In this document: positions 6,799 through 48,358 of the stretch, piece by piece
Position numbering within the stretch: the first letter of the stretch is position 1
Layout of the letters: every line of letters begins with the position of its first letter
NCBI GenBank assembly: GCA_018666805.1
Contig: JABIXB010000140.1
Location: 1 to 55,423, forward strand
From: Rhodospirillaceae bacterium
GTDB lineage: Bacteria > Pseudomonadota > Alphaproteobacteria > UBA828
DNA: 55,423 nucleotides
Direction: 5' to 3'
Notes under the pieces: model-generated
Databases searched by the model: none
Seen by the model: only the letters and a program-made list of their open reading frames with translations
What the model was told of the DNA's origin: nothing
Position numbers and translations under genes: made by a program

Positions 6799-7431
6799 CT
6801 ACGACGGAAAGGCCTCGCGCAATTCCGCCACCTGTTCCGCCGTCAGCAGGCGCACATCGCAGCCGCGCAGAAGGAGATGGAGTTTGGCCGTCTCCTCCAG
6901 TTCTTCCGCCGCATAGACGGCGGCGTCCAACTCCTTACCGGCGACCACGGGCCCGTGGTTGGCGAGCAGGACGGCGTGGTGTTCTTTGGCGTATTTGGCC
7001 ACCGCTTCGGCCAGGGCCATGTCGCCGGGGCGGAAATAGGGCACTAGCGGTAATTTGCCGACGCGCATCACCGCATAGGCGGTGATCGGCGGCAGCACAT
7101 CATCCGGGTCGATATCGGCGAGAGTCGAAAGCGCCACCGAATATGTCGAGTGCAGGTGCACGATTGATTTTGCGCTCGGGCGCTCGCGGTACATGGCGAG
7201 GTGGAGAAAGGCTTCCTTGGAAGGCTTGTCACCGGCCAGTAACTTTCCCTCAGGCGATAATTTTGAAATGCGCGCCGGGTCGAGCCGGCCCATGCAGGAA
7301 TTGGTCGGCGTCACCAGCAGCCCATCCTCGACCAGATGGCTGATATTGCCCGACGAGCCGCAGCCATAGCCGCGTTCGAACAGCGATTTGCCGTGCAGCG
7401 CGATGCGTTCGCGCAGGTCTGTCTCGTTCAA
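6799..7431 (-). CDS. otnC: Class II aldolase family, OtnC-like 3-oxo-tetronate 4-phosphate decarboxylase
   Basis: This 210-residue class II aldolase/adducin-fold enzyme has the signature GNISHLVEDGLLVTPTNSCMG, the zinc-ligand segment IVHLHSTYSVALSTL (HxH) and a further histidine in VLLANHGPVVAG. Its direct partnership with an OtnK-like kinase (4-base ATGA overlap at 7428-7431) makes OtnC the best call: the kinase phosphorylates a 3-oxo-tetronate and OtnC decarboxylates it to dihydroxyacetone phosphate. In that pathway an OtnI isomerase and a dehydrogenase act upstream, and neither is seen nearby. L-fuculose-phosphate aldolase would be the alternative label from sequence alone. Confidence 0.82.
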   Translation of the reverse strand: MNETDLRERIALHGKSLFERGYGCGSSGNISHLVEDGLLVTPTNSCMGRLDPARISKLSPEGKLLAGDKPSKEAFLHLAMYRERPSAKSIVHLHSTYSVALSTLADIDPDDVLPPITAYAVMRVGKLPLVPYFRPGDMALAEAVAKYAKEHHAVLLANHGPVVAGKELDAAVYAAEELEETAKLHLLLRGCDVRLLTAEQVAELREAFPS

Positions 7432-8714: not shown

Positions 8715-8755
8715 TTGCCGCTTCGCCGCTGTATTGAGGATTAAAGTGTCGCTGC

Positions 8756-10069
8756 CTATTTCACCGCTTGCCAGGCGCGCGTGAAGAAATCGGCCGTGCC
8801 GAAATTTCCCGCCTTCAGCGCCAAGTGGATCGGCGGTTTGTCCAGGGTCATTGTCCAGGGCGCGCCGGGATCGATCTTATGGCCGATACGGAGCGAGTGA
8901 ATCTTAAGCGCTTTGATGGTTCCGCCCGAGGTTGCGCCGCCGGCGACAACCAATTGACCGACGCCGGCCTTGACCAGGCCTTTGGAAATTTTCGCCAGAC
9001 AGTCTTCGATCAAATTCCGGGATTTCTGGATGCCGTGCTTGCGCTGAATCTTCTTCACCGTCTCGGCATTGGTACTCGAATAAATCAGCACCGGACCATC
9101 CGCCAATTTCGGCTTGGCCCAATCCAATGCTTCCTTGGCGATATCCCGCTTGCCGCCGAGCTTCCTGCCATCGACAAAGAACGCCGGGCAGGTTTTCTTC
9201 ATGTGGGCGACTTGCGCCAAGGTTGCCTCGGAACAACTGCCGGCCACGACAGCCTGATAGCCTGTCGCCTTCGGCAATTCGTCGGCGCCGGAATCGGGGC
9301 CCATCAGGCCGGCGCGGCGGAAATTTTTGGGCAGCGCCATTGCCGCGCCCGAGGCCCCGGTTATCAATTTTATGTCGCGGCAGGCGGTGCCGATATCGCG
9401 TAAATTGCGCGTCGTGACCGCATCGACGATGGCGTAGCGCGAGCCCGCCGCGCGCAGGCGGTTCAATTCGCCCAAGATAGCAGCGGGGCCAAGTGTCACG
9501 ACCTCATGCGGCACCAGGTCAACTTTCGCTTTGGTCTGCCGGCTGAGCACTTTGATCAAATTTGATTGCTTCATCGGTGTTGCCGGATGGGTGCGCATAA
9601 AGGATTCAGACAGCAACAGATTGCCGACGAAAAGATGGCCCTGAAACACGGTGCGCCCGGCCACCGGAAATGACGGACAGAAAACCGTAAAATCTTCCTT
9701 CATCGCTTTTAACAGCGCATCCGCAACCGGCCCGATATTGCCGCGGTTGGTCGAATCGAAGGTCGGGCGGTATTTGAAATATATTTGCTCAGCACCGCGC
9801 GCCTGCAGCCAGCGAAGCGCGGCGAGGGATTGGCGTATCGCGTCTTTGGCCGGGGCCGTGCGGGTATTGAGCGCAATGACGATTGCGTCTGCGTCTTTTA
9901 TGGCCAAATCCTTGTGCGGCACGCCGATTTCCTGAACGGTGCGCATGCCTTGGCTCACCAGGGTGTAGCTCAGGTCGGTTGCGCCGGCGATGTCGTCGGC
10001 GATGGCGCCGAGGAGAATTTTGTTTTTCCCGCCCGCTTTCGTCGCTTTCACGCGTCTAATTTTAGCCAT
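8756..10069 (-). CDS. OtnK-like four-carbon acid sugar kinase, diverged copy 2
   Basis: This 437-residue paralogue of the downstream kinase is colinear along its whole length (LGAIADDIAGATDLSYTL, GRTVFQGHLFVGNLLLS, VAGGATSGGTIKAL, LALKAGNFGTADFF), about half identical by eye. The C-terminal ATP-binding motifs are kept. The substrate loop differs: KYCSTFDST of the canonical family is KYRPTFDST here (R101, P102). The copy therefore looks like a functional kinase with a changed substrate, or a partner subunit. It is the first otn-type gene of the minus-strand operon and starts 8 bases after the stop of the acyl-CoA dehydrogenase. Confidence 0.8.
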   Translation of the reverse strand: MAKIRRVKATKAGGKNKILLGAIADDIAGATDLSYTLVSQGMRTVQEIGVPHKDLAIKDADAIVIALNTRTAPAKDAIRQSLAALRWLQARGAEQIYFKYRPTFDSTNRGNIGPVADALLKAMKEDFTVFCPSFPVAGRTVFQGHLFVGNLLLSESFMRTHPATPMKQSNLIKVLSRQTKAKVDLVPHEVVTLGPAAILGELNRLRAAGSRYAIVDAVTTRNLRDIGTACRDIKLITGASGAAMALPKNFRRAGLMGPDSGADELPKATGYQAVVAGSCSEATLAQVAHMKKTCPAFFVDGRKLGGKRDIAKEALDWAKPKLADGPVLIYSSTNAETVKKIQRKHGIQKSRNLIEDCLAKISKGLVKAGVGQLVVAGGATSGGTIKALKIHSLRIGHKIDPGAPWTMTLDKPPIHLALKAGNFGTADFFTRAWQAVK

Positions 10070-34852: not shown

Positions 34853-35692
34853 ATGGCGAATATTGTCCGAAACGTCGGCGCATTGCGTGCGGCAGTAGCG
34901 GAATATCGGGGTAGCGGCGAGCGCGTCGCCCTGGTGCCGACCATGGGCGCGCTGCACGGCGGGCACATGGCCCTGGTTGACGCGGCGCGCGGCGCTGCGG
35001 AGCGCACCATAGTCAGTATATTCATCAACCCAACCCAATTCGCGCCAACAGAGGATTTGGCCAGCTATCCGCGCAGCGAGGCGGAAGACCTGCGCCAATT
35101 AGCCGAAGCCGGCGTTGATCTCGTCTTCATGCCGGCGCCGGATGAGGTCTATGGCGCGGGCTTCGCCACATCGGTGAGCGTCGCCGGCCCCGGCGCCGGG
35201 CTGGAGAGCGCGGCGCGGCCGCATTTCTTCACCGGCGTCGCCACCGTGGTGGCCAAGCTGCTGCTGCAATGCCTGCCCGATGCCGCGGCATTCGGCGAGA
35301 AGGATTATCAGCAGCTGCAAGTGGTGCGCCGCCTGGTGCGCGATCTCGATATTCCGTGCGAAATTCTCGCCATTCCGACGGTGCGCGAGGCGGATGGCCT
35401 GGCCTGCTCGTCGCGCAATGCCTATCTCACGCCGGCCGAACGTGCTGTTGCCGCCGGGCTCTATGAAATATTGCAGGCAATGGCGCAGCGCCTCGCCACG
35501 GGCGGCGCCGTCATCACGGAAATCGAGGACGGCATGCGGTGCCTCGAACAGGCCGGTTTCGATGTGATTGATTATCTCGCATTGTGCGACGGCGAGAGCC
35601 TGGTGCCGTTATCCGAATTGCACGATGGCGCACGGCTGCTGGCCGCGGTGCGGCTCGGCAATACCCGCCTGATCGATAACGTTGCGCTCTAG
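34853..35692 (+). CDS. panC: Pantothenate synthetase
   Basis: PanC joins pantoate and beta-alanine with ATP. The 279-residue protein has LVPTMGALHGGHMALVDAA with HIGH-like ATP-binding histidines (H-G-G-H), VSIFINPTQFAPTEDLASYP, RPHFFTGVATVVAKLL, GEKDYQQLQVVRRLV and ACSSRNAYLTPAER (KMSKS equivalent). I use the ATG at 34853, which begins the conserved part; the open frame extends back into panB without homology. The last base of its TAG lies in a CTAG shared with the stop of the convergent dehydrogenase. GTG/ATG alternatives were not needed. Confidence 0.94.
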   Translation: MANIVRNVGALRAAVAEYRGSGERVALVPTMGALHGGHMALVDAARGAAERTIVSIFINPTQFAPTEDLASYPRSEAEDLRQLAEAGVDLVFMPAPDEVYGAGFATSVSVAGPGAGLESAARPHFFTGVATVVAKLLLQCLPDAAAFGEKDYQQLQVVRRLVRDLDIPCEILAIPTVREADGLACSSRNAYLTPAERAVAAGLYEILQAMAQRLATGGAVITEIEDGMRCLEQAGFDVIDYLALCDGESLVPLSELHDGARLLAAVRLGNTRLIDNVAL

Positions 35693-36876
35693 CTGCCCGG
35701 CATTTCGCCGCGAATAGCAACGATAAAGAGCTGCGCCAGATCTTGCCGGCTGAGCGGGCGCGGGTTGCAGGCGCGCGCCTGATCGATTTCGGCCAGCGCC
35801 ACCAATTCATCGACGCCGCTTTCCTCGACGCCGAGATCGGCCAAGCTATGTGGGATGCCAATTTCTTGGCGCAGCTCCAACACCCATTGAATCAAGCCGT
35901 CCGCCCCGCTCCCCGGCAGCCCCAGATGGCTCGCCAGGCGGGTCAGCGGCGCCTCGATATCCTGCCGGTTAAAGGCCAGGACATAGGGCATGAAAATCGC
36001 ATTGGTGAGGCCGTGATGGGCGTTGTAGAGCGCCCCGACCGGATGGCTGAGCGCGTGAATGGCGCCGAGGCCTTTCTGAAAGGCGGTCGCCCCCATCATC
36101 GACGCAACCAGCATATGCGCCCGGGCGGAGATATCGCTGCCGTCCGCGACGGCGGTTGGCAGCCACTCCTTGATCAGGCGCATGCCTTCCAACGCCATAC
36201 CATCGGCCATCGGGTGAAAGCCGCGCGCGCAATAGGCTTCAAGATTATGCGCCAGCGCGTCCATGCCGGTCGCGGCGGTCAAATCGGCGGGTAGGCTGAG
36301 GGTCAAGGCCGGGTCGAGGATCACGGCGCCCGGCATCAGCTTGGGATGAAAAATGAGCTTCTTGCAGCGTGCGCTTTCGTCGGTAATGACCGCCACGCGG
36401 CCAACCTCGGAGCCGGTGCCGGCGGTTGTCGGTACGGCGACCACCGGCGCAATGGCATCGGCGTCGGCACGCAGATACCAATCCTCGCGATCCTCGAAAT
36501 CCCAAATCGGGCGGTGTTGGCCCGCCATCAGGGCGGTTGCCTTGGCCACATCCATCGCACTGCCGCCGCCAAAGGCAATGATGCCGTCATGATTGCCGGC
36601 GCGGTAAACGGCAACGGCATCGGCAACATTGGCGCTTACCGGATTGGCAGCCACATCGGAGAAGGACGCAGCGGGCAGACCCGCATCGGTACATAGGCTA
36701 AGCGCATTTTGAACCATGTCGCTCTCGGCCAGGCCGGGGTCGGTGATGAGAAGCGGCCGCGCAATGCCGATCTTGGCGCAGGCTTCCGCCAGCTCTTCGA
36801 CACGGCCGGTGCCGAAACGGATTGCTGTCGGATAACTCCAGTCGCCGAGCAGAGCCCAGCCGACACCGATATTCAT
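35689..36876 (-). CDS. Iron-containing alcohol dehydrogenase
   Basis: This 395-residue group III dehydrogenase has a nucleotide-binding N-terminal half (ADAVAVYRAGNHDGIIAFGG with GGGSAMDVAKATAL, and VPTTAGTGSEVGRVAVITD) and a metal-binding helical half. The Asp and three His ligands lie in GMDALAHNLEAYCARGFHP and ALSHPVGALYNAHHGLTNA. The protein reduces or oxidises an unknown alcohol/aldehyde with NAD(P). Its last four bases overlap panC's stop (CTAG), so the two genes are strictly convergent. A tiny membrane-protein gene sits 70 bases upstream on the same strand. Confidence 0.92.
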   Translation of the reverse strand: MNIGVGWALLGDWSYPTAIRFGTGRVEELAEACAKIGIARPLLITDPGLAESDMVQNALSLCTDAGLPAASFSDVAANPVSANVADAVAVYRAGNHDGIIAFGGGSAMDVAKATALMAGQHRPIWDFEDREDWYLRADADAIAPVVAVPTTAGTGSEVGRVAVITDESARCKKLIFHPKLMPGAVILDPALTLSLPADLTAATGMDALAHNLEAYCARGFHPMADGMALEGMRLIKEWLPTAVADGSDISARAHMLVASMMGATAFQKGLGAIHALSHPVGALYNAHHGLTNAIFMPYVLAFNRQDIEAPLTRLASHLGLPGSGADGLIQWVLELRQEIGIPHSLADLGVEESGVDELVALAEIDQARACNPRPLSRQDLAQLFIVAIRGEMPGS

Positions 36877-37256: not shown

Positions 37257-37889
37257 TTACGCGAGAGATTTGACGAATTCAGCGATGGCACCCGCGCCCT
37301 CGGCCCAATTGTGCTCGTTATCGGCGTCTGAATCATCCGCCGTGACGAGATGATGGTCACCGCCCTCGAGCCAGGTCACTTTGACATTTTCCGGCAGCCC
37401 ATAGCCGGCAACCTCGTCCGGCGCGCCGAACGGGTCTTCGCCGCCCTGCAGGATCAGGGTCGGCGCGGCGATATTTTTTAAATATTCGATGCGGGTATTT
37501 TCAGGTTTTTCCGGCGGATGAAAGGGGTAGCCGAGGCAGATCACGCCTTTGGCCCCGACCTGATTGGCAATCAGGGTGGCGATCCGGCCGCCCAGCGATT
37601 TGCCGCCGATGACGAGATTCGAGCCGCCGCCGAGCGCACCGACCACCGCCAGATAGCGCTCGACCAGAACCGGCGCCGGGCTTGGCGGATAGCGTTTGCC
37701 CTCGGTGCGCTGGCGTTGCATGTAGGGAAATTCGAAGCGCGCGACGCGAAAACCGCCTTTGGCGATTCCTTCAGCGAAGGCATTCATGAACGGAGCGTCC
37801 ATCGGCACGCCGGCGCCGTGCGCGAGCACGACGGTCACGGCCGCATCTTCCGGTCCATCGAAAAGAAATTTGATGTTGCCCGTGGTCAT
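37257..37889 (-). CDS. Small alpha/beta hydrolase (KANL3/Tex30-like, dienelactone-hydrolase fold)
   Basis: The 210-residue protein has VVLAHGAGVPMDAPFM as the oxyanion-hole region, the nucleophile elbow GGKSLGGRIATLIA (Ser), the acid DPFGAPDE and the histidine in LEGGDHHLVT. It matches the bacterial family related to KAT8/NSL3 regulators. The reaction is unknown; esterase or acyl-protein hydrolase activity is plausible. It lies on the minus strand, divergent from the monooxygenase cluster with 140 bases between starts, so the intergenic region must hold both promoters. Confidence 0.83.
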   Translation of the reverse strand: MTTGNIKFLFDGPEDAAVTVVLAHGAGVPMDAPFMNAFAEGIAKGGFRVARFEFPYMQRQRTEGKRYPPSPAPVLVERYLAVVGALGGGSNLVIGGKSLGGRIATLIANQVGAKGVICLGYPFHPPEKPENTRIEYLKNIAAPTLILQGGEDPFGAPDEVAGYGLPENVKVTWLEGGDHHLVTADDSDADNEHNWAEGAGAIAEFVKSLA

Positions 37890-38029
37890 GTTCCAGTCCC
37901 CTTTTGTGCACAGATTCCCTGAGATTTAGGTGGTTTGCCTATTCTCCGTCAAGTCTGAAGCCCCTCCGGTGTTGGCAATTCAGGTGCCGGTGAATAAACT
38001 TAGTGCCTGCTTTGCCCTGGGAGGAACCA

Positions 38030-39526
38030 ATGGCGCTGTTAGATCGCTCGGACTGGTACGATATTGCCCGCGATACCAATTGGACGCCGGGCTATGTTCC
38101 GCGTGAGGAAATATTTCCGCCCCAATTGAGCGATCCTTACGGCATCCCGGTCGAGCAATGGGAAACCTTCGATGAGCCTTACAAGGTTTCCTACCGCGAA
38201 TATGTCAAAATTCAGCGCGAGAAGGATTCCTCCGCCTATTCGGTAAAGGCGGCGCTGTCGCGCTCCAAATTCCACGACGATTTGGATGAAGGCTGGGCCA
38301 GTGTGCTCAAGCTGCATTATGGCGCCGTCGCCCTGACCGAATATCAGGCCTGCCAATTTCAGGCGCGCATGGTGCGTTTTGGCCCGTCGCCGTCGATGCG
38401 CAATATGGCGACCTACGGCATGCTCGATGAGCTGCGTCACGCCCAGTTGCAATTATTCTTCCCGCACGAGCTGGTGTCACGCGACCGTCAATATGATTGG
38501 GCGCATGAGGCGGCGCACACCAAGAACTGGGCCGTTCTCGGCGGCCGTCACGCGATCGACGATATCATGATGTGCCGCGACGCGGTGACCGGAACGATCA
38601 TGGTTTCCTTTGCGTTTGAGACCGGCCTGACAAATCTGCAGATGGTCGGCCTGTCGACGGATGCGGCCAATATGGGCGATTTCACCTTCGCCAATATGAT
38701 CACCAGCATCCAGTCGGACGAGGCGCGCCACGCCCAGCTCGGCTCGCCGGCGATTGAGATCATGATCAACAACGGCAAGAAGAAAGAGGCGCAGCAAGCC
38801 GTCGATGTCGCCTTTTGGCGCATGTGGCGTCTCTTTGCCATCACCGTCGGCATTCCGATGGATTATTACATTCCGCTCGATCAGCGCCATTTGTCGTTCA
38901 AGGAATTCATGCACGAGTGGATCATCCGCCAATATGACCGCCAGGTGCGCGATCTCGGCCTCGAGACGCCGTGGTATTGGGATCTTCTGGCCGACGATAT
39001 CGAGAACCATCACCATTGCCAGCAGGGCGGTATCTGGTCATGGCGGCCGACCGTGTGGTGGAATCCGCCCGGCGCCGTCGGCCCGCGCGAACGCGAATGG
39101 CTGGAGGAAAAATATCCCGGCTGGAACGACAGTTACGGCACCTATTGGGATGTCATTACCGACAATCTGCTGCATGGCCGGGAAGAAAAAACCCATCCCG
39201 AATGTATCCCGATCATCTGCAATATGTGCCAGATACCGATTTCCAACCGGCCGGGCGAGGCGTGGAAGGCGCGCGCCCTGCAATTGGAGCATGAAGGCCG
39301 GCGCTACAATTTCTGCACCGAACCGTGCCGCTGGATTTTCACCACCGATCCCGATCGCTACAAGCACCACTTAACGATTGTCGACCGCATGTATTCCGGC
39401 GAGATCGATCCGCCGACGCTCGATAATGTCCTCACCTATATGGGCATCGGCGTGGTCAGCGAGGGCGGCCGTGACGGCCATGATTATAGCTGGGTCGATG
39501 GTTTCCGCACCCAGGCGGCGGAATAG
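38030..39526 (+). CDS. tmoA: Soluble diiron monooxygenase hydroxylase, alpha subunit (toluene-4-monooxygenase TmoA-like)
   Basis: The alpha subunit carries the diiron centre that inserts an oxygen atom into a hydrocarbon. The 498 residues are colinear with T4MO TmoA. The iron ligands fall at identical numbers: E104 (TEYQA), E134 and H137 (DELRH), E197 (FETG), E231 and H234 (DEARH), with T201 in the pocket. Residues 100 and 103, Ile and Gly in T4MO, are Val and Thr here. C397, C400, C429 and C433 form a CNMC...FCTEPC motif that T4MO largely lacks. GGGAGGAA lies 6 bases before the ATG; the upstream in-frame GTG is not needed. It heads a five-gene hydroxylase operon without a reductase gene. Confidence 0.92.
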   Translation: MALLDRSDWYDIARDTNWTPGYVPREEIFPPQLSDPYGIPVEQWETFDEPYKVSYREYVKIQREKDSSAYSVKAALSRSKFHDDLDEGWASVLKLHYGAVALTEYQACQFQARMVRFGPSPSMRNMATYGMLDELRHAQLQLFFPHELVSRDRQYDWAHEAAHTKNWAVLGGRHAIDDIMMCRDAVTGTIMVSFAFETGLTNLQMVGLSTDAANMGDFTFANMITSIQSDEARHAQLGSPAIEIMINNGKKKEAQQAVDVAFWRMWRLFAITVGIPMDYYIPLDQRHLSFKEFMHEWIIRQYDRQVRDLGLETPWYWDLLADDIENHHHCQQGGIWSWRPTVWWNPPGAVGPREREWLEEKYPGWNDSYGTYWDVITDNLLHGREEKTHPECIPIICNMCQIPISNRPGEAWKARALQLEHEGRRYNFCTEPCRWIFTTDPDRYKHHLTIVDRMYSGEIDPPTLDNVLTYMGIGVVSEGGRDGHDYSWVDGFRTQAAE

Positions 39527-39540
39527 GGGAGGGCAGAGAG

Positions 39541-39819
39541 ATGTCAGCCTTTCCGATCCTCTCGCGCTTTCAAAATGATTGCCACGTCAAGGTGGTCGAG
39601 GCCGAGCCGGCGCAAAGTATCGATGCTCTGGCGGAGGCGTGCGCCTATCACTCGATTGGCGTGCACGTCAAAGATCAGCCGGGCAAGATCCTGCGCGTCC
39701 GTCCGACCAGCGATAACGACGATGCCGCGCCGTGGCCGCGCGAGATGACGGTGGCCGAGGCCGGGATTAAATATTTCGACAGCATCGATATCTATTTCAC
39801 CGATCCGGGCGCCGGCTAG
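39541..39819 (+). CDS. tmoB: Monooxygenase hydroxylase gamma subunit (TmoB-like)
   Basis: This is the small structural subunit of the (alpha-beta-gamma)2 hydroxylase, with a ubiquitin-like fold. The 92-residue protein starts MSAFPILSRFQNDCHVKVVE and ends near REMTVAEAGIKYFDSIDIYF, the same beginning and end pattern as TmoB. GGGGAGGGCAGAGAG just upstream is a strong ribosome site. It lies 14 bases after tmoA. It has no catalytic residues. Confidence 0.85.
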   Translation: MSAFPILSRFQNDCHVKVVEAEPAQSIDALAEACAYHSIGVHVKDQPGKILRVRPTSDNDDAAPWPREMTVAEAGIKYFDSIDIYFTDPGAG

Positions 39820-39820
39820 C

Positions 39821-40156
39821 ATGGCATTCACCAAAGTGTGCACGCTCGACGATGTGTGGCAGGGCGAGATGGAAGCCTTTGAGGTCGACGGTACGGAAGT
39901 TCTCCTGGTCCACACGCTCGACGGCGAAGTCCATGCCGTGCAGGCGATCTGTCCGCATCAGGAAGTCGAACTGGCCGAGGGCGAGCTGGAGGGCAAGGTG
40001 CTGACCTGCTGCATGCATCTTTGGCAGTTCGACGTGTCGAGCGGCAAGGGCCTCAACCCGACCCACGCCGAACTGGCCAAATTTCCGGTTAAGATCGAAG
40101 GCGATGATGTGCTGGTCGATGTCGCCGGAATCGAGGCAAAGTTCGCCCATGCTTAA
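39821..40156 (+). CDS. tmoC: Rieske ferredoxin of the monooxygenase (TmoC-like)
   Basis: TmoC shuttles electrons from the reductase to the hydroxylase. The 111-residue protein has a Rieske [2Fe-2S] site: C44-x-H46 in AICPHQEVELAEGE and C63-x2-H66 in LTCCMHLWQFD. An additional Cys64 lies inside the second loop. The TmoC pattern (EVELAEGELEGKVLTCCMHLW) is much closer to toluene monooxygenase ferredoxins than to other Rieske types. The ATG follows the tmoB stop by 1 base, so the two are coupled. Its own electron donor is not encoded next to it. Confidence 0.92.
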   Translation: MAFTKVCTLDDVWQGEMEAFEVDGTEVLLVHTLDGEVHAVQAICPHQEVELAEGELEGKVLTCCMHLWQFDVSSGKGLNPTHAELAKFPVKIEGDDVLVDVAGIEAKFAHA

Positions 40157-40168
40157 AAGGAAACGCAA

Positions 40169-40474
40169 ATGAGTGGCGGCGAAGACGCAAGAAAAAATTC
40201 CGTCGGCCCGGTGTTGCGTGCCGGCGAGGTCGCGGATGCGGTGGTCGAAGCGATCCAGGAGGATAATCCGGACAAGCAATTCCTGATTGAGGACCGCGTC
40301 GCCTATATCCGCATCGAGACCGAAGGCGAATGCGTGCTGCGCCAGGAAACGCTTTCCGATGCGCTCGGGCGGCCGATCACCATGCCGGAGGTCGAGGTCA
40401 ACCTGACCTCATTTGCTGGGCGGATCGAGACAACGGATACGGAGATGCGGTTTTATCTCAAGAAATCGCTCTGA
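40169..40474 (+). CDS. tmoD: Monooxygenase effector protein (TmoD-like)
   Basis: The effector binds the hydroxylase and controls reactivity and specificity of the diiron centre. The 101-residue protein matches TmoD through SVGPVLRAGEVADAVVEAI, DNPDKQFLIEDRVAYIRIE, ETLSDALGRPITMPEVEVNL and SFAGRIETTDTEMRFYL. It has no cofactor motif, as expected. The gene order tmoC-tmoD is that of T4MO and isoprene monooxygenase. AAAAGGAAACGC about 8 bases upstream is its ribosome site. Confidence 0.92.
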   Translation: MSGGEDARKNSVGPVLRAGEVADAVVEAIQEDNPDKQFLIEDRVAYIRIETEGECVLRQETLSDALGRPITMPEVEVNLTSFAGRIETTDTEMRFYLKKSL

Positions 40475-40502
40475 GCACGGCAATGGATGAAAGTGATGTG
40501 CC

Positions 40503-41492
40503 ATGACTGATGCCCCCGATCTGAAGCCGCTCAAGACCTGGAGCCATCTCGCCGGCCAGCGCCGCCGGCCGAGCGAATATGAAATCGTCTCGACCAATCT
40601 GTTGTGGAGCACCGACGACGAACTTCCATGGTCGCTCTCGCCCGACATGGACATGAACCAGTGGTATTTGAAATACCGCGATGGCTCACCGCTCAAGCAT
40701 GTTGATTGGGACGCTTTTCGCGATCCGGATGGCCTCGTCTACCGCACCTACAATATCCTGCAGGACGGCCAGGAGGCTTATGTTGACGGCCTGTTGGATG
40801 AGCACAATGCCAGTGGCCATGACGCTGAGTTAAGCGCCGGATGGCTCGATAGCCTGGCTCTTCTCTACACCCCGGCGCGCTACATGCTGCACGCCGTTCA
40901 GATGAGCTCGGCCTATCTCGTGCAGATGGCGCCGGCGAGCACGATCGTCAATTGCGCCATGCTGCAGGCCGCCGATCAGTTGCGCTGGGTATCGCGCACC
41001 GCCTATCGCACCAAGGAGCTTTCCCTCACCGCGCCGGACAAGGGCTTTGGCGACAAGGAACGCGCTCTTTGGGAAAATGATCCGGCGTGGCAGGGCTTTC
41101 GCGAGCTGATGGAACGGGCGCTGGTGGCCTATGACTGGGGCGAACAATTCGTCGCCCTCAATCTGGTCGCCAAACCGGCCATCGATGAAGCCTTTGTGCG
41201 CCAGCTCGGCCAAGCCGCCCACCGCGCCGGCGATGGTTTGCTGCGCCAACTGTTGGATGCGCAACAGGCCGATAGTGTGCGCGCGCGCAATTGGAGCGCC
41301 GCACTGGTTGCCCTCGCCCTGCAAACGGATGGCAACAAACAAGTTTTGGCGGATTGGGTGGCGAAATGGGCGCCGTTGGGCGACGCCGCCAGCGATGCTT
41401 TTTGCGCGGCACTGCCCGATGCCGGCGATGCGGCGGCACAGGCGAAAGACGAGGCCGAGGCGTTCCGCGCCGGGCTTGGCTTGGGCCGCTAG
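40503..41492 (+). CDS. tmoE: Monooxygenase hydroxylase beta subunit (TmoE-like)
   Basis: The non-catalytic beta subunit has a ferritin-like helical fold without iron ligands. The 329-residue protein is the size of TmoE (about 327) and has TWSHLAGQRRRPSEYEIVST, WYLKYRDGSPLKHVDWDAF, PDGLVYRTYNILQDGQEAYV, and RYMLHAVQMSSAYLVQMAPAS in the usual order. It follows tmoD by 28 bases. In T4MO-type operons the reductase tmoF comes next; here the next gene is a short-chain reductase instead. Confidence 0.92.
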   Translation: MTDAPDLKPLKTWSHLAGQRRRPSEYEIVSTNLLWSTDDELPWSLSPDMDMNQWYLKYRDGSPLKHVDWDAFRDPDGLVYRTYNILQDGQEAYVDGLLDEHNASGHDAELSAGWLDSLALLYTPARYMLHAVQMSSAYLVQMAPASTIVNCAMLQAADQLRWVSRTAYRTKELSLTAPDKGFGDKERALWENDPAWQGFRELMERALVAYDWGEQFVALNLVAKPAIDEAFVRQLGQAAHRAGDGLLRQLLDAQQADSVRARNWSAALVALALQTDGNKQVLADWVAKWAPLGDAASDAFCAALPDAGDAAAQAKDEAEAFRAGLGLGR

Positions 41493-41515
41493 GCGTTAAA
41501 ATCTAAGGAGGAACT

Positions 41516-42571
41516 ATGGCGCGGAAAAAAGCGCTGGTCGTCGGCGGTCTCGGCGTTATCGGACGCAACCTGATCAACCACATGGCGGCGCAAGACGATT
41601 GGGATATCGTCGCTGTCAGCCGCCGCGCGCCGGATAAGGAAATGGCGGCGAAAGCCGATTTCATCTCCTGTGACCTGTTGGATATGGCGCAAGCCGAGGC
41701 CAAGCTCGCGCATCTCAGCGACGTGACGCATATCTTCTGTTGCGCCCTCTATGGCGGCATCGACGCCACCACGACCGAGCAAAACCGCGCCCTGGTGGCC
41801 AATCCGGTGACGGTGATGTCGGCCGCCTCAAACAGCCTGGAGCGCGTCGTGCTGCAGGAAGGCAGCAAGGCCTATGGCCGCCAGCTCGGGCCGTTCAAAA
41901 CGCCGGCCAAGGAATCCGATTCACGCCACATGCCGCCCAATTTCTATTACGAGCAGGAAGATTTCCTGATCGATTTTCAAAACGGCAAAGATTGGAGCTG
42001 GGCGGTGCTCAGGCCGGAAGCGGTGTGCGGCTTCGCTGTCGGCAATCCGATGAATCTCATCATGTGCTTCGGCACCTACGCCGCGATCTCGAAAGAGCTC
42101 GGCATGCCGCTTAAATATCCCGGTGACCTACGCGGCTTCGAAGCGATCAATCAGGTCACCGATTCAGGCCTGTTGGCGCGCATGACCTTGTGGAGCGCGA
42201 CTTCGCCCAACGCCGCCAACGAGATTTTCAACATCACCAATGGCGACGGCTTCCGTTATGTCAATGTGTGGCCCGATTGGGCCGCTGCCTTCGGCATGGA
42301 GGTCGGCATGGCGCAACGCATCATCTCGGCCGAGGTCATGCCCGACAAAGGCCCGGTGTGGGACCGCATTGTCGAAAAGCACGGCCTGATGAAACTGACT
42401 TATGAACAAACGGCGGGCTGGCCCTATTTCGATTTCAACATGGATACCGCTTGGGACGTGCTGATGTCGGACGCCAAGCGCATCGATAAGGGCTTTACCG
42501 AAATGGTCGATACGGAAAAAATGTTTCTCGACCTTTTCGCCGAATTTCGCTTGAGGAAGGTTTTGCCCTAA
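41516..42571 (+). CDS. PRISE-type NAD(P)-dependent enone reductase (progesterone 5-beta-reductase/iridoid synthase-like)
   Basis: The 351-residue SDR has the nucleotide-binding motif VVGGLGVIGRNL (about residues 8-19). The PRISE catalytic pair is present: K118 in GSKAYG and Y145 in PPNFYYEQEDFLID. Plant and bacterial PRISE enzymes reduce conjugated enones by 1,4-addition. The neighbouring diiron hydroxylase suggests the product of hydroxylation, or a later enone, as the substrate. AAGGAGGAA about 8 bases before the ATG is strong. It lies 23 bases after tmoE in the same operon. An NAD-dependent epimerase label would miss this PRISE signature. Confidence 0.82.
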   Translation: MARKKALVVGGLGVIGRNLINHMAAQDDWDIVAVSRRAPDKEMAAKADFISCDLLDMAQAEAKLAHLSDVTHIFCCALYGGIDATTTEQNRALVANPVTVMSAASNSLERVVLQEGSKAYGRQLGPFKTPAKESDSRHMPPNFYYEQEDFLIDFQNGKDWSWAVLRPEAVCGFAVGNPMNLIMCFGTYAAISKELGMPLKYPGDLRGFEAINQVTDSGLLARMTLWSATSPNAANEIFNITNGDGFRYVNVWPDWAAAFGMEVGMAQRIISAEVMPDKGPVWDRIVEKHGLMKLTYEQTAGWPYFDFNMDTAWDVLMSDAKRIDKGFTEMVDTEKMFLDLFAEFRLRKVLP

Positions 42572-42584
42572 CGGGGATTTGCAT

Positions 42585-43622
42585 ATGGCGACAGAAAATA
42601 TGGATACGCCGTTTCAACTGCGCGAGGGTTTGCACAAGCGCGAGATCATCCGTCTCAAACCGGCGGACGTGCCGGTGATCGATTTCGGCCGCATCTATTG
42701 CACCAACAAGGCGGATCAACGCGAGCTTGGCGACGAGCTGCGCGCCGCCTGCACGGGGCCCGGCTATTTTTACCTCTATAACCACCAGTTCCCGCAATCG
42801 GTGATCGACCGCGCCTATGCCGCCATGCAGCGTTTCTTTGCTCAGCCGCTCGACGAGAAGATGAAGAATCATTATCTCGAATCGCCCAATCACCGGGGCT
42901 ATGTGCCGCTGAATGGCATCCAGGCCGATCACAGCCTGAAAGGCAGCGATATTTCCGAAGCCATCGAAATGGCCGATGATCTGCCCGAGGACGATCCGGA
43001 CTATCTCAGGGGTTTGCGTTTTTACGGCCCCAACAATTGGCCGGCATATCCGCCCGATTTCCGCTGGGCGCTCGGCACCTATTATGATTGCCAGATCGAG
43101 CTTGGCCGCTCGATCTACCGTGCCTTCGAACTGGCGCTCGATTTGGAGCCGGGCTATTTCACCGAAAAATACACCAAGCCGCTGTCGCGCACCCGGGTGT
43201 GTTATTACCCGCCCGGCGACGAGGATTTCAATATCGCCCATATCGGCCTCGGCGCGCATACCGACTATGAATGCTTCACCACGGTGTGGCAGAACGGCGT
43301 GCCGGGCCTGCAAATGTTGACGCAGGGCGGCGATTGGCTTGAGCTGCCGGCCATTCCCGGCACCTTCGCCGTCAATCTCGGTGATCTCCTGCAACAATGG
43401 ACCAACGACACGTTCGTCTCGACAGCGCACCGCGTGATCAACACCACGCCCGAGGAGCGCTTCTCGCTGGTGCAGTTTTTCGGCGTCGATTACGACGTGT
43501 TGGTCGAGGGCTTGCCGGGTTGCGTCAGCGCCGATAATCCATGGAAATACAAAGCCATCAAGGCGGGCGAACATTCCGAACAAATGGTGGCGCGTACTTA
43601 CGGCTATGACGGCGGTGCTTGA
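42585..43622 (+). CDS. Isopenicillin N synthase family 2-oxoglutarate/Fe(II) oxygenase
   Basis: The 345-residue double-stranded beta-helix oxygenase has the DIOX_N-like domain (VPVIDFGRIYC, GPGYFYLYNHQFPQSVID) and the iron site H225-x-D227 (AHTDYECFTTVWQ) with H282 (VSTAHRVINT). R292 in EERFSLVQFF is the 2-oxoglutarate-binding arginine. Its relatives hydroxylate, desaturate or cyclise secondary metabolites and hormones. The ATG at 42585 has GGGG upstream; a TTG two codons earlier is ignored. It starts 13 bases after the PRISE gene, so it is the seventh gene of the monooxygenase operon. Its stop is one base from that of the convergent PaaK-like gene. Confidence 0.88.
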   Translation: MATENMDTPFQLREGLHKREIIRLKPADVPVIDFGRIYCTNKADQRELGDELRAACTGPGYFYLYNHQFPQSVIDRAYAAMQRFFAQPLDEKMKNHYLESPNHRGYVPLNGIQADHSLKGSDISEAIEMADDLPEDDPDYLRGLRFYGPNNWPAYPPDFRWALGTYYDCQIELGRSIYRAFELALDLEPGYFTEKYTKPLSRTRVCYYPPGDEDFNIAHIGLGAHTDYECFTTVWQNGVPGLQMLTQGGDWLELPAIPGTFAVNLGDLLQQWTNDTFVSTAHRVINTTPEERFSLVQFFGVDYDVLVEGLPGCVSADNPWKYKAIKAGEHSEQMVARTYGYDGGA

Positions 43623-43623
43623 G

Positions 43624-45009
43624 CTATAGCTCCGATTTGAATTCCTCGTATTTTTCGCCGGCCTGGCGTTCGATCTTTTTCACATAGCTAAGCTTAATTT
43701 CAAACGGATGGCCAAGGCGGGCGAGCATGCGCTCGCGTAGCGCTTCTTCTTCCTGTTCATTGAGCGGCCGTTCGACCACCAGGCGCGCTTCGATCGCCTG
43801 CCGGCTTTTTTGCACGAACTGATATTGCCGCACCGGCGCGATTTCGGCGAAGCGGCTGCCGCCCATCAGTGGCCAGCTGCGCGAGCCATCGGGCAGGGTG
43901 AGCATGGCCCGCGCCCGGCCCATGATGCGGGTCAGCACCGGCAGGCCGCGCCCGCATGGGCAGGGAGCGCCCACTTCGGCGTAATCGCCGATATCGTAGC
44001 GCAGCAGCGGCGTGGCAAAATTATGTAAGGGCGTCACCACGACGCGGCCGACCTCGCCCGGCTGACACGGCGTACTATCGCCATCCAATATTTCGATCAG
44101 CGCGCACTCGCTCTGGACATGATAGTTCTCAGTCTCGGGGCATTGCAGGGCGATGTAGCCGGTCTCCTGGGTGCTGTACATGTCGGCGATCTCAATGCCC
44201 CAGAGACGCCGGCATTGCGCGCGCAAGGCCGGGTCGAGCACTTCCGACAGGGTTTGCACCTCGCGTAGGCTCGGATATCGCACGCCGCTCTCTTCGCTCA
44301 GGCGCAGCAATTCGCCGAGGTTGGACGGGTTGGTGCTGAGATAGGCGGCGTTCTGGCGCGCCAGCCATTCGCCCTGATCGGCGACGGGCGTGGTGATGGT
44401 CAGCTTGGCCGCCGGCCCGGTGCGAAACAGCGCCGCCGGTGAGCCCCAATTATCGCTCTCGATACCATCCGGATAGGCGGCGCGGGCTGAGCGGTCATAG
44501 CGGATGGTGGCGAAAGTGGCGCTGAGATCGCGCTTGCGCCAGATATGGTCGCGCAAGGTAAAGGCGGTCCAATAAAAAGCACTGAGCTCGGTGCGGCTCA
44601 CACTGACCGGCTTGCCGGTCGAGCCGGTCGTTGTCGATTGGCTAGTCCTGCCGTGGCCCTTGGGCGGTTCCGTGCATTGCAGTTTTGTGCCCGATTTTTG
44701 CAGTTCGTCGCGGGTGAGAATGGGCAGCTCGCGCCATGCTTCTTCGCTGAGTGGCTTGTGTTGGCCGATGCCCGCCGCTTCCAGTCGTTTGCTGAGATAC
44801 GGGATATGCTGGTGCGCGAAGTGGCACAGCTTTTCGATCTGACCGAGCTGATGGGCGTGCAATTTCTCCGCCGGCCACCATTGCGATTGTTCAAGCTGAA
44901 ACAGCACGGCGAGCAGCGACGCACCCTCGCGCCCCGGCACGGCTGGCCAGCCGATGCCCTCGATTGCAGAAAGCGTGTGTTCGCTGATATCCGCCGGCTG
45001 TTCGTTCAT
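43624..45009 (-). CDS. PaaK/CapK-like adenylate-forming enzyme
   Basis: The 461-residue protein belongs to the phenylacetate-CoA ligase / coenzyme F390 synthetase family. Typical elements are SQSTTTGSTGKPVSVSRTEL (P-loop-like Ser/Thr/Gly motif near residue 125), DMYSTQETGYIALQC, VVTPLHNFATPLLRYDIGDY and CGRGLPVLTRIMGRA. It should activate a carboxylic acid with ATP. The CoA-transfer or other second step and the acid are unknown. Its start overlaps the preceding DMT transporter stop by four bases (ATGA type), so it is coupled with an exporter. It is convergent with the monooxygenase operon. Confidence 0.82.
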   Translation of the reverse strand: MNEQPADISEHTLSAIEGIGWPAVPGREGASLLAVLFQLEQSQWWPAEKLHAHQLGQIEKLCHFAHQHIPYLSKRLEAAGIGQHKPLSEEAWRELPILTRDELQKSGTKLQCTEPPKGHGRTSQSTTTGSTGKPVSVSRTELSAFYWTAFTLRDHIWRKRDLSATFATIRYDRSARAAYPDGIESDNWGSPAALFRTGPAAKLTITTPVADQGEWLARQNAAYLSTNPSNLGELLRLSEESGVRYPSLREVQTLSEVLDPALRAQCRRLWGIEIADMYSTQETGYIALQCPETENYHVQSECALIEILDGDSTPCQPGEVGRVVVTPLHNFATPLLRYDIGDYAEVGAPCPCGRGLPVLTRIMGRARAMLTLPDGSRSWPLMGGSRFAEIAPVRQYQFVQKSRQAIEARLVVERPLNEQEEEALRERMLARLGHPFEIKLSYVKKIERQAGEKYEEFKSEL

Positions 45010-45932
45010 TTTTTCGCCCGTGCGCCGAGGGTGAGCAGCAGCACGCTCATCGCCATCAGCGCCGTGCCACCCCAGACATAGAGACTATACCGTTCGCCGA
45101 ATAGAATCATGCCCCAACCGAAGCCGGCGGCGACGGAGAGATAGTTCATCTGCGAGAAAAATACCGGGCCGGAGAGGCGGACAATCTCAAGGAACAGCAC
45201 ATAGAATATGGCGTTCAACAAAGTGGCGTAGAGAAAATTCCAGTTCACGCCGGGGTCGGCGCCGGCAAAAAAATAGAATTGGCCGCTGGCGGCCATGATC
45301 GGCAGAAGCAGCGCTGCGGCTGCCAATAGCATGCCGGCGGCGAACACCGTGGGCGGCATCATCGGCGGCCGTACCAGCGCGGTGAGCACGTTGCCGAGGC
45401 CGAGCAACAACGGCGCCAGCAGGGCGAGGAGCAGCCACCACACCATATCGGGCTCGGGCAGGCTGACATCGGGCAGGACGATCACCAGGATGCCGCCGAG
45501 GCCGGCCGCCAGTCCGGCGATACTGAGCAGCTTCAGGCGGTCGACGCCGAGCAAAATGGCGAAAAAATAGGTCAGGGTCGGGGCCAGTATGACGACCATG
45601 CTGATCAGGCCCTGTGGCAGCTTATCGGCGAGAAAGGTCAGTACCGCCATTGGCGCGCCCATGGCAAAGATGCCGACCGCCAGATAGGCGCGGATATAGG
45701 TGAATTTCAGGCGTGGCATCTCGCCCCTGAGAATAGCCACGCCGAGCAGCACGGTTCCGGCGAACAGCATTGGCCAAAAGGCGAAGGCAAAGGGCGGCAC
45801 GCCGCCATCGACCGCGATCTTGTTGAGCACGAAGCGCAGCGGCGCAATGATCCCGCCGGCCAACATGAGAGACAGCGACAGCGCGCCGACGCGCGTTTCC
45901 AAGCCGGCTGAGGGCCGTTGCTTTGCCGCCAA
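45006..45932 (-). CDS. DMT superfamily (EamA) transporter
   Basis: This 308-residue ten-helix exporter of the drug/metabolite family has GGIIAPLRFVLNKIAVDGG and LTYFFAILLGVDRLKLLS among its helices, with an EPDMVWW loop matching EPDMVGW in the tandem pair at 11.5 kb. The start at 45932 is TTG with GAGGGAA about 8 bases upstream; no ATG fits. It is the first gene of a two-gene operon with the PaaK-like enzyme. It is divergent from the glutamine-synthetase-like gene with 147 bases between. Confidence 0.8.
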   Translation of the reverse strand: MAAKQRPSAGLETRVGALSLSLMLAGGIIAPLRFVLNKIAVDGGVPPFAFAFWPMLFAGTVLLGVAILRGEMPRLKFTYIRAYLAVGIFAMGAPMAVLTFLADKLPQGLISMVVILAPTLTYFFAILLGVDRLKLLSIAGLAAGLGGILVIVLPDVSLPEPDMVWWLLLALLAPLLLGLGNVLTALVRPPMMPPTVFAAGMLLAAAALLLPIMAASGQFYFFAGADPGVNWNFLYATLLNAIFYVLFLEIVRLSGPVFFSQMNYLSVAAGFGWGMILFGERYSLYVWGGTALMAMSVLLLTLGARAKK

Positions 45933-46079
45933 AATGGATTCCCTCTACTGCCGCCACCGCTGCCGTTGCGCTGTCTTAGCCTATCCGCCCGCGCCGCCGC
46001 CGACAACGTGGGCTCGACGCATCGCGGCCTGTTGGGCTATCTTCCGCCGGATAAAAAAATATATGGGAAGGGCTGAAAG

Positions 46080-47426
46080 ATGTCAGCAGGGAGCGAATGG
46101 CCGGTGCATTTCAGCGGCGGCGAAGGTGACGTGATGGCTTGGCTGCGCGAACATAATGTCGAGCGCATCCGGGCCGAGTTTTCCGATTTTAACAGTATCG
46201 CGCGCGGCAAGGCGGTTTCGGTGGCGCAGTTTGAGCATGTCATGCAGCATGGCCTCGCCTTTGCCGCCACGATCATGGCTGTCGATAACAAAGCCTATGT
46301 GGTGCCCGGCACCGATTATGCGGAATCCATCGGCTATGGCGATTTCATACTCAAGCCCGATCTTTCCACGCTCCGTCTGCTGCGCCACGAAGGCGGCTCG
46401 GCGCAGGTGGTCGGTTCGCTGGTGTGGCCGGATGGCTCGCTTGTCGATAGCTGCCCGCGCAACGTTCTCGCCCGGGTGGCCGGACAAGCGGCGGAAATGG
46501 GCTTTACCGCCTTTGCCGCGCCGGAGCTCGAATTTTACCTGCTCAATGAGGATTACGAGCTCCTCGACGAAGGCGTGCAATGCTATTCGATGCATAAGCG
46601 CACGATGTTTCTGGCTGAGGAGCTGGCTCTTCTCGAAGCGGCGTCGGCGCACTGCCAGTTGGAAAACAGCCATTACGAATATGGCCCCGGGCAATATGAA
46701 ATGACCATGCGCTATCAGGAAATTTGCCGCATGGCCGATACGGGGCAATTGTTCCGCTCTACCCTGAAGGAGGCCGCCATGGGTATGGGCGGGCGTATCT
46801 CCTTCATGGCCAAGCCGTTTGATGGCGTTACCGGCAATTCCTGTCATATGCATTTGTCGTTAACCGATGCGGCGGGGAAAAACGTCTTTGCCGCGCCCGA
46901 GGCGCCCCAGCATATCAGCGATACGTGCCGCCATTTCATCGGCGGCGTGCTGGCGCATATGCCCGAATTGACGGCGATCTTCTTCCCCAATTCCAATTCC
47001 TACCGCCGTCTGGTGCCGGGAAATTTCGCCCCGATTTCGCTTGTTTGGGGCGTCGATAACCGCACCACGGCGGTGCGTGTGCTGAATGAGACGCCGGAGG
47101 CAACGCGGGCGGAACTGCGCGTCTGTGGCGGCGATATCCAAATTCATTTGGCGATGGCGGCATATCTCGCTGCCGGGCTGGATGGCATCCGCAAAGGCAC
47201 CGACCCCGGCGCGCAATCGGTTGGCGATCTCGACGAGCAGGATGTCACCCGCATTCCCGATGATTGGGGCAAAGCGCTTGATGTTTTCGACGCCTCCGAC
47301 TGGGTAAAGGAAGCGTTTGGCGAGGAGTTCTGCCGCAACTTCAGCGTTCTCAAACGCTTCGAGTATGATGCTTACCGCCGCACCGTGCCCGAGACCGAGC
47401 GCAAAGCCTATATCGAGTTTCTGTAG
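46080..47426 (+). CDS. Glutamine synthetase family protein (PuuA/gamma-glutamylamide-synthetase-like)
   Basis: The 448-residue protein has the GS beta-grasp N-terminal part (ERIRAEFSDFNSIARGKAV) and the catalytic barrel: AAPELEFYLLNEDYELLD with the metal-ligand glutamates, ENSHYEYGPGQYEMTM, FMAKPFDGVTGNSCHMHLSL, and NRTTAVRVLNETPEATRAEL. It lacks the GlnA adenylylation-loop tyrosine pattern, so it is probably a ligase that joins glutamate to an amine other than ammonia. Its end overlaps the convergent transporter gene by 19 bases. The link with two DMT exporters may mean amine handling, but this is inference. Confidence 0.85.
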   Translation: MSAGSEWPVHFSGGEGDVMAWLREHNVERIRAEFSDFNSIARGKAVSVAQFEHVMQHGLAFAATIMAVDNKAYVVPGTDYAESIGYGDFILKPDLSTLRLLRHEGGSAQVVGSLVWPDGSLVDSCPRNVLARVAGQAAEMGFTAFAAPELEFYLLNEDYELLDEGVQCYSMHKRTMFLAEELALLEAASAHCQLENSHYEYGPGQYEMTMRYQEICRMADTGQLFRSTLKEAAMGMGGRISFMAKPFDGVTGNSCHMHLSLTDAAGKNVFAAPEAPQHISDTCRHFIGGVLAHMPELTAIFFPNSNSYRRLVPGNFAPISLVWGVDNRTTAVRVLNETPEATRAELRVCGGDIQIHLAMAAYLAAGLDGIRKGTDPGAQSVGDLDEQDVTRIPDDWGKALDVFDASDWVKEAFGEEFCRNFSVLKRFEYDAYRRTVPETERKAYIEFL

Positions 47427-48358
47427 CGCGGCCGGGCGGCACGCTGCAGGCGCATTTTACTGAGCGTATTGGTGGCAAGGCCGAGCAGCAGCAGCGCTGC
47501 CGCGGCCCAGATATAGCCGCTTACCGAGCCGCCGAAAAACAGCGCCTGCCAGCCGAAGCCGCCGAGCACGATGATATAGGCGGCCTGCGAAACAAACACC
47601 GCGCCGGCCATGGTGATGATCACGAACATCAGCCACCAGCGCGCGACATTGATCAGCGTCGCGTAGAGCACGGCGAAATCGCCCTCGGCGCTTGGCCCCG
47701 GAAATAGATGAAAATCGCCGGCGATGGCGGTGATCGGCAGCATAATGATGCCGGCGGCGAGGAGAACGCCGGTGCCCAATTGCAGGCCATCGCTCTCGGG
47801 CGGCGCATAAAGGTCGATAAAAATATTAAAGAGGGCAAACAAGACCGGCACGAGCAGTATCAGCAACACCCAGCCGACCATGCCGGGCTCGGGCAGGCTT
47901 GCCTCCGGTATCAGGATCAACAGGATGCCGCTCAAGCCTGCGAGCAACCCGGCAACGCTGAGCCAGCGAAAGCGCTCAAGCTTGACCGGCAGGGCGAACA
48001 GATAGCTGAGGAGCGGCGCCAGCACGACAATCATGGTGATCACGCTAGATGGCAGGTGCGGTGCGGCCAAGGTGAGCAGCGTCATTGGCGCGGCGAGGCC
48101 GATGACGCCGCCGATAAAATAGACGAGCAAATGACGGCGGCCCGTGAACGGCAATTTGCGCCTGAGAATGCAGACGATCAGCAGGATCAAGCCACCACCG
48201 AGCGATACCCACACCACATAGCCGAGTGCCGGCACGCCATTTTCGGTGGCGATTCGGTTGACCGGAAAGAGCAGGCTGTAAATCAGCCCGGCGATTATCA
48301 GCAGAAAAACCGAAAGCGGCCCAATATTGCGCTTGGGCGCCTCATTTTTATTGTTCAT
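47408..48358 (-). CDS. DMT superfamily (EamA) transporter
   Basis: This 316-residue ten-helix EamA protein has SVFLLIIAGLIYSLLFPVNR, NGVPALGYVVWVSLGG, and EPGMVGWVLLILLVPVLFA. It shares the NGVP..YV.W and EP.MVGW landmarks with the three other DMT proteins in the window, so all four come from one subfamily. It starts 12 bases after the stop of the molybdopterin oxidoreductase and may be co-transcribed with it. The substrate is unknown. Confidence 0.8.
   Translation of the reverse strand: MNNKNEAPKRNIGPLSVFLLIIAGLIYSLLFPVNRIATENGVPALGYVVWVSLGGGLILLIVCILRRKLPFTGRRHLLVYFIGGVIGLAAPMTLLTLAAPHLPSSVITMIVVLAPLLSYLFALPVKLERFRWLSVAGLLAGLSGILLILIPEASLPEPGMVGWVLLILLVPVLFALFNIFIDLYAPPESDGLQLGTGVLLAAGIIMLPITAIAGDFHLFPGPSAEGDFAVLYATLINVARWWLMFVIITMAGAVFVSQAAYIIVLGGFGWQALFFGGSVSGYIWAAAALLLLGLATNTLSKMRLQRAARPRYRNSI

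Follow-up and report, generated by a model that had tools for sequence, protein, structure and literature searches.

Reductases of the PRISE/VEP1 family are not new in bacteria: the parts of Tarrio et al. (2011, PMC3144213) drawn on here map them there, trace the family to an alphaproteobacterium with several transfers to eukaryotes, and divide the bacterial sequences into clusters I, IIa and IIb. The original prediction for the gene described here had placed its emphasis on plants, and this has to be corrected, as bacterial PRISEs are on record and the family is inferred to be of bacterial origin. The same parts of that paper describe a Phe directly before Tyr179, read Arg63 as a marker of NADPH use, give His152 as strictly conserved in clusters IIa and IIb, and mention one bacterial cluster without Tyr179. 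The conserved catalytic pair is Tyr-178/Lys-146 in iridoid synthase (in the sections used of PMC5582856) and Tyr-179/Lys-147 in the Plantago enzyme (in those used of PMC6172241). The roles of these two residues are partly open even in the plant PRISEs; the latter sections cite iridoid synthase lysine mutants that kept much activity in some reports and little in others, and a Plantago Y179F mutant that failed to express. PRISE enzymes are promiscuous in the test tube.

The closest described monooxygenase systems are the operons of toluene/o-xylene monooxygenase (ToMO, touABCDEF) and toluene-4-monooxygenase (T4MO, tmoABCDEF). Here we describe a PRISE gene, PRISE1, that lies directly behind an operon of this type in the window, i.e. 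the whole 55,423-nucleotide stretch of Rhodospirillaceae DNA that was analysed. The PRISE family is already known; a search of the literature, without most subscription journals, turned up no report of such a reductase paired with a diiron monooxygenase.

The reductase gene and the operon in front of it

PRISE1 is a real, intact and well conserved bacterial PRISE gene behind a real monooxygenase operon (Table 1). The predicted ORF exists, encoding 351 amino acids from an ATG at 41516 to a stop codon that ends at 42571, with an AAGGAGG upstream that resembles a ribosome-binding site. The tmoE stop lies 23 bp before the ATG, and the next ORF begins 7 bp past the PRISE1 stop. PRISE1 is not a chance ORF, because its orthologs are conserved at 78-94% identity across genera and dN/dS is well below 1 (0.04-0.13 in three of seven comparisons, those with dS of about 1 or less, dS being near or past saturation in the rest).

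Table 1. Genes and sites of the monooxygenase-PRISE1 region in window coordinates.
Feature	Coordinates	Strand	Evidence
tmoA-like diiron hydroxylase alpha subunit	38003..39526	+	Pfam Phenol_Hydrox E=6.5e-74
tmoB-like subunit	39541..39819	+	Pfam TmoB E=1.3e-19
tmoC-like Rieske ferredoxin	39821..40156	+	Pfam Rieske E=1.4e-19
tmoD-like effector protein	40169..40474	+	Pfam MmoB_DmpM E=4.8e-29
tmoE-like diiron hydroxylase beta subunit	40503..41492	+	Pfam Phenol_Hydrox E=7.3e-71
AAGGAGG, likely ribosome-binding site of PRISE1	41505..41511	+	sequence, recognised by eye
PRISE1, PRISE/VEP1-family reductase (GxxGxxG G10-G16, R36, K118, Q123, Y144)	41516..42571	+	Pfam, phmmer, alignment, AlphaFold, Foldseek, VIA-align
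2-oxoglutarate/Fe(II) (2OG) oxygenase	42579..43622	+	Pfam DIOX_N + 2OG-FeII_Oxy

The genes upstream of PRISE1 are of the T4MO/ToMO type, with the A, B, C, D and E subunits in order and with TmoA keeping E104, E134, H137, E197, E231 and H234 (ToMO numbering), which we take to be the diiron ligand positions. The gene directly upstream had been called tmoE, correctly by subunit type (Pfam Phenol_Hydrox). TmoA matches the ToMO and T4MO alpha subunits at E of about 1e-202, and its likely true start is 38030 (codon 10 of the ORF), where ToMO begins. The locus is like the touABCDEF/tmoABCDEF operons in its A-E subunit order, in having F in relatives and in its ligand positions; unlike them, it has a PRISE gene added behind, and tmoF is absent from the window operon. 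Reductase homologs of 43% and 49% identity lie elsewhere in the window genome (3.92 Mb in 317 contigs, 98.3% complete), at contig ends. When 37800-43800 was scanned for promoters and terminators, the hits did not exceed those in shuffled sequence. Spacing, strand and conservation are therefore the basis of the operon, and the tmo genes are probably co-transcribed with PRISE1.

The substrate pocket of the monooxygenase differs from that of ToMO. At positions 100, 103, 176, 192, 205 and 214, ToMO has Ile, Glu, Phe, Leu, Phe and Glu, whereas the TmoAs linked to PRISE1 have Val, Thr, Met or Ile, Val, Met and Asn; all seven rows of their clade lack Phe at 176 and at 205 and lack Glu at 214. Toluene should therefore not be assumed as the substrate. 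No ring-cleavage family was present among the 20 window proteins scanned (30.8-52.9 kb), in contrast to the Ideonella plasmid, and toluene degradation is weakened as a candidate by this result together with the pocket. Nor, with an isoprene-type pathway in view, was a glutathione transferase found among the same 20 proteins. In the TmoA tree, which was limited to matches covering at least about 430 residues of the query, those TmoAs of linked operons that entered it form one clade (seven rows, the window counted twice; support 99), which also takes in one TmoA of G301, a genome of genus g3 without PRISE1. Two further clusters, L183 (G081:C65) and L178 (G299:C85), each have two different tmoA-like alphas in tandem and a single tmoE; the tandem alphas are about 76% and 65-66% identical to the window TmoA.

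Family, active site and origin of PRISE1

Membership of the PRISE family, as originally predicted, holds in Pfam, in phmmer against the PDB and in the predicted fold. The best Pfam family is PRISE (PF22917; E=1.5e-22, 80.6 bits against a cut-off of 27, residues 58-351). Iridoid synthase was the top phmmer match (E=1.7e-45), enzymes named progesterone 5-beta-reductase matched at 1.2e-43 and weaker, and after the PRISEs a single other SDR matched (E 6e-4). The AlphaFold model, a prediction built from 68 natural sequences, has a pLDDT of 95.2 and a pTM of 0.92. With this model Foldseek ranked PRISE structures in all of places 1-20 (TM about 0.9) and other SDRs below, and VIA-align gave Z 46.0 for iridoid synthase (rmsd 1.9 A over 344-347 residues, span 1-351) against Z 28.7 for the best non-PRISE chain. 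PRISE1 is 27-30% identical to plant PRISEs. It is like those compared (Catharanthus iridoid synthase, Digitalis and Arabidopsis progesterone 5-beta-reductase and Plantago PmMOR) in its whole predicted fold (Z 44-46, rmsd 1.5-2.0 A, 341-349 residues), its catalytic Lys and Tyr and its NADPH-type Arg; it is unlike them in its loop, KAYGRQ rather than KHYLGP, and in the position of its gene with a diiron monooxygenase operon.

We aligned 68 proteins, including eight PRISE1 orthologs (the window among them, those of G294, G295 and G299 being left out) and 28 of 71 more distant loci (L087-L157). The catalytic Lys had been identified correctly as K118, which is invariant in all 68 rows, as are G10, G13, G16, R36 and N90. 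The catalytic Tyr had been given as Y145, one residue too far: NFYY is N142-F143-Y144-Y145, and the HMMER alignment places Y144 on the Tyr of the iridoid synthase NFYH, so that Y144 (Tyr in 67 of the 68 rows) is the counterpart of Tyr178 of iridoid synthase and Tyr179 of the 5-beta-reductases, with Y145 aligning with Tyr180 (Tyr in 53 rows). The Lys147/Tyr179 pair of PRISEs (Digitalis numbering), which replaces the YxxxK of SDRs, is thus present as K118 and Y144, and F143-Y144 fits the Phe-before-Tyr179 pattern as given in the parts of PMC3144213 cited above. R36 follows the second strand at the position of Arg63; PRISE1 probably prefers NADPH, because this residue is both invariant and at the NADPH-marker position.

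The loop of PRISE1 is of the bacterial cluster-II type (KxYGxx), not of the plant type; 20 of the 68 aligned rows have plant-like KHYLGP and 48 have cluster-II KxYGx, and in the alignment the cluster I marks His148, Leu150, Gly151 and Pro152 are absent from the PRISE1 loop. As far as the sections used of PMC3144213 describe cluster IIa, PRISE1 is like it in the KxYGx loop and the Tyr at 179, keeping Gly121 (Gly150) and Tyr144 (Tyr179), but unlike it in having Gln123 for His152, as do all eight aligned orthologs. Across the 48 cluster-II rows this position is His in 37, Gln in 10 and Thr in one, the Gln rows being the eight PRISE1 orthologs and two rows of one other family, i.e. Gln occurs in two of the 40 cluster-II rows that are not PRISE1 orthologs. 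The Gln loop departs from the description of cluster II in those sections. Because the loop is of the bacterial type, progesterone and 8-oxogeranial are not specially indicated as substrates, and the sequence offers no special reason to expect the iridoid synthase reaction (cyclisation of 8-oxogeranial) of PRISE1.

In the PRISE tree, built by a quick method with SH-aLRT support only and rooted on one long-branched plant sequence, so that its deep order is unsure, the eight PRISE1 rows form one clade (support 100) on a long stem of 0.71, adjoined by other PRISEs of the same bacterial family. A plant-type PRISE, or a recent transfer from plants, can be set aside, since the loop is of the cluster-II type and the nearest tree rows are Alphaproteobacteria. 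Among the best 80 of 126 relatives, those closest to PRISE1 are from metagenome-assembled genomes, some labelled Lake Baikal or Red Sea. The window genome has a second PRISE (G000:C147:5334-6380; L002, L181), 47% identical to PRISE1, whose neighbours look by eye like aminotransferase and dehydrogenase genes; no tmo gene was matched on its 6.6-kb contig. A 41% identical homolog (L097) lies on a contig titled Vibrio cholerae strain 35D, where transfer, mislabelling or contamination is possible.

Distribution of the gene pairing

A close PRISE1 ortholog (at least 78% identity) is present in 11 of the 21 genomes of the family, and in seven of these it lies directly behind tmoE or tmoE-tmoF on the same strand, which bears out the location first noted for the window gene. 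The tmoE-PRISE1 junction occurs in the window genome (G000), G293 (on two contigs overlapping at 90.7% identity, counted once), G295 and G296. G289 and G290 show the order tmoABCDEF-PRISE1, and in G291 a contig opens with tmoE-tmoF-PRISE1; the tmoF products of G290 and G291 are Fer2, FAD and NAD(P) reductases by domain test. In one of the 11 (G294) tmoE and PRISE1 are each at a contig end, and this genome is counted neither as linked nor as unlinked. In the other three (G081, G298 and G299) PRISE1 lacks a tmo neighbour but keeps the 2OG gene next to it, so PRISE1 can serve without an adjacent tmo operon. Since the simple gene caller gives shadow ORFs in places, e.g. over the window tmoC and tmoD, neighbouring tmo, PRISE and 2OG genes were assigned by tblastn.

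The tmo-PRISE1 arrangement occurs in two different chromosomal settings. In genus g1 the upstream flank has ABH11 in all three genomes checked (window, G295 and G293) and Fe-ADH in two of these three, with the 2OG gene downstream of PRISE1. G289 and G290 have uvrC upstream, and in G289, G290 and G291 PRISE1 is followed by a formate-THF ligase gene that converges on it (Pfam typing was of the G290 proteins). The motifs H227xD, H284 and R294xS are present in the 2OG enzyme, and its gene directly follows PRISE1 in eight of the 11 ortholog genomes, i.e. all five of g1 and all three of g2. Further along the window (45006-48358) a glutamine-synthetase-like gene lies between two EamA transporter genes on the other strand, and these genes are kept near PRISE1 and the 2OG gene in those g1 and g2 loci that are long enough.

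The two partners also occur apart. All eight genomes of genus g3 have a tmoE homolog without PRISE1, including G301 with its TmoA of the linked clade; G298 (67% complete) has PRISE1 and no tmoE, and G292 and G297 have neither. At seven g3 loci (L063-L067, L069 and L070) the tmoE homologs are 67-71% identical to that of the window, and no other tmo gene was matched within their 1.5-kb flanks.

The association with the diiron monooxygenase is sound but confined to a single family of aquatic Alphaproteobacteria. In the class sample (289 genomes) 44 carry a PRISE homolog at E<=1e-20; in the phylum sample (398 genomes) 28 do so at E<=1e-40. Five of the class genomes encode both a PRISE and a TmoA homolog; three of these belong to the family, and the pair of the window is the only adjacent one in that sample; at the cut-offs used, the window genome is the only one of the phylum sample with both. 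No tmo or 2OG gene matching those of the window at E<=1e-10 was found at 71 more distant PRISE loci (57 of which carry about 8 kb on both sides) or in 16 further neighbourhoods, 15 of them outside the family. Among the grounds on which the original prediction was to fall was a lack of co-occurrence with the diiron cluster in other genomes; co-occurrence was seen within the family and the link was missing from the samples outside it.

Possible roles of PRISE1

Our analysis leads us to propose that PRISE1 acts as an ene-reductase that uses NADPH and shares a pathway with the monooxygenase encoded upstream; its substrate would be an electrophilic carbonyl derived from the product of that monooxygenase, and we give this reading about even credence. 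Because the gene sits right behind the monooxygenase genes, the probable target of PRISE1 is a double bond in a compound derived from what the monooxygenase makes. The monooxygenase, with its pocket unlike that of ToMO, would oxidise a small unsaturated or aromatic compound to a product that is, or readily becomes, an alpha,beta-unsaturated carbonyl; PRISE1 would then deliver a hydride of NADPH to the beta carbon while Tyr144, aided by Lys118, polarises the carbonyl; and the product would be a saturated, non-electrophilic carbonyl, on which the 2OG oxygenase encoded behind PRISE1 in two genera may act next. The hydride transfer and enone reduction are here extrapolated from plant enzymes of 27-30% identity, and the source of the carbonyl is suggested by gene order; substrate class, reaction direction and shared pathway are likewise proposals.

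The original prediction had the hydroxylated product oxidised to an enone and then reduced. A PRISE with its Lys/Tyr pair and its placement with a monooxygenase both stand, while the separate alcohol oxidation and any link outside the family do not. Fe-ADH (35689-36876 in the window) is present in the window and G295, no ADH is in the gene call for G293 (L179), and none lies beside tmoABCDEF-PRISE1 in G289 or G290; as an alcohol dehydrogenase is not constant in the cluster, this oxidation step has no dedicated, conserved gene. If an enone-type product arose directly, e.g. by oxygenation of a furan or pyrrole ring, no alcohol oxidation would be needed.

PRISE1 could instead be a general scavenger, as plant PRISEs are efficient reductases of methyl vinyl ketone and 2-cyclohexenone and have been argued to serve in detoxification (in the parts used of PMC8778713 and PMC11643720). 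The patchy occurrence of PRISEs in bacteria, their varied neighbours and the three genomes in which PRISE1 lacks an adjacent tmo operon agree with this, but a scavenger would have no need to keep its place after a monooxygenase operon in two distinct settings, and the close conservation of the orthologs with their shared active-site-loop Gln suggests one specific substrate; we consider the idea unlikely. That PRISE1 partners the 2OG oxygenase, together with the transporter and glutamine-synthetase-like genes, the tmo operon being a neighbour by history, would explain why the 2OG gene is retained in all three genomes without adjacent tmo and why the EamA and glutamine-synthetase-like genes recur further along. 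However, G289, G290 and G291, with tmoF before PRISE1 and the converging ligase gene after it, have no 2OG gene in the stretch examined, and we judge this partnership improbable.

Alternatively, PRISE1 may have drifted away from C=C reduction and now catalyse a different SDR reaction, carbonyl reduction or epimerisation, with the monooxygenase product as substrate. The replacement of the cluster-II His152 by Gln123 in every aligned ortholog fits such a change, extended-SDR epimerases share the wider fold (Z about 27-29), and the Plantago PRISE is said to reduce aldehydes too (in the sections used of PMC6172241). The retained K118/Y144 pair and a fold match to PRISEs far above that to other SDRs nevertheless speak against this drift, which we hold to be very unlikely.

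A more specific form of the ene-reductase proposal is that the two enzymes form an oxidise-then-reduce module, in which the remodelled T4MO-type enzyme would open an aromatic, heteroaromatic or terpenoid substrate directly to an electrophilic enone, enal or ene-dione and the PRISE, with His152 changed to Gln, would capture it by reduction with NADPH, perhaps cyclising it; in this detail we hold it to be distinctly unlikely. If true, it would provide a natural substrate for a bacterial PRISE and a bacterial counterpart to the monooxygenase-iridoid synthase route of plants, with an oxygenase of another kind. The occurrence of a PRISE behind a monooxygenase operon in two settings means that its natural bacterial substrate can be sought via the product of the upstream enzyme, and the pairing of an oxygen-inserting enzyme with an NADPH-dependent ene-reductase would be useful in biocatalysis.

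Other genes were seen near these clusters. Paralogous tmo clusters of the family, at L180, L189, L197 and L200, have hydantoinase A/B, amidase, RidA-like or molybdenum hydroxylase genes in their vicinity (recognised by eye), and the PRISE1 locus of G295 (L187/L188) is also near such genes, e.g. hydantoinase A/B and molybdenum hydroxylase (typed by Pfam). These neighbours hint at nitrogen-heterocycle catabolism, which stays a lead because they are not constant. Far upstream in the window, on the reverse strand (6799-10069), tandem SBD_N/NBD_C kinases of 428 and 437 aa lie beside a class II aldolase by Pfam, a combination that presumably belongs to a four-carbon sugar-acid pathway.
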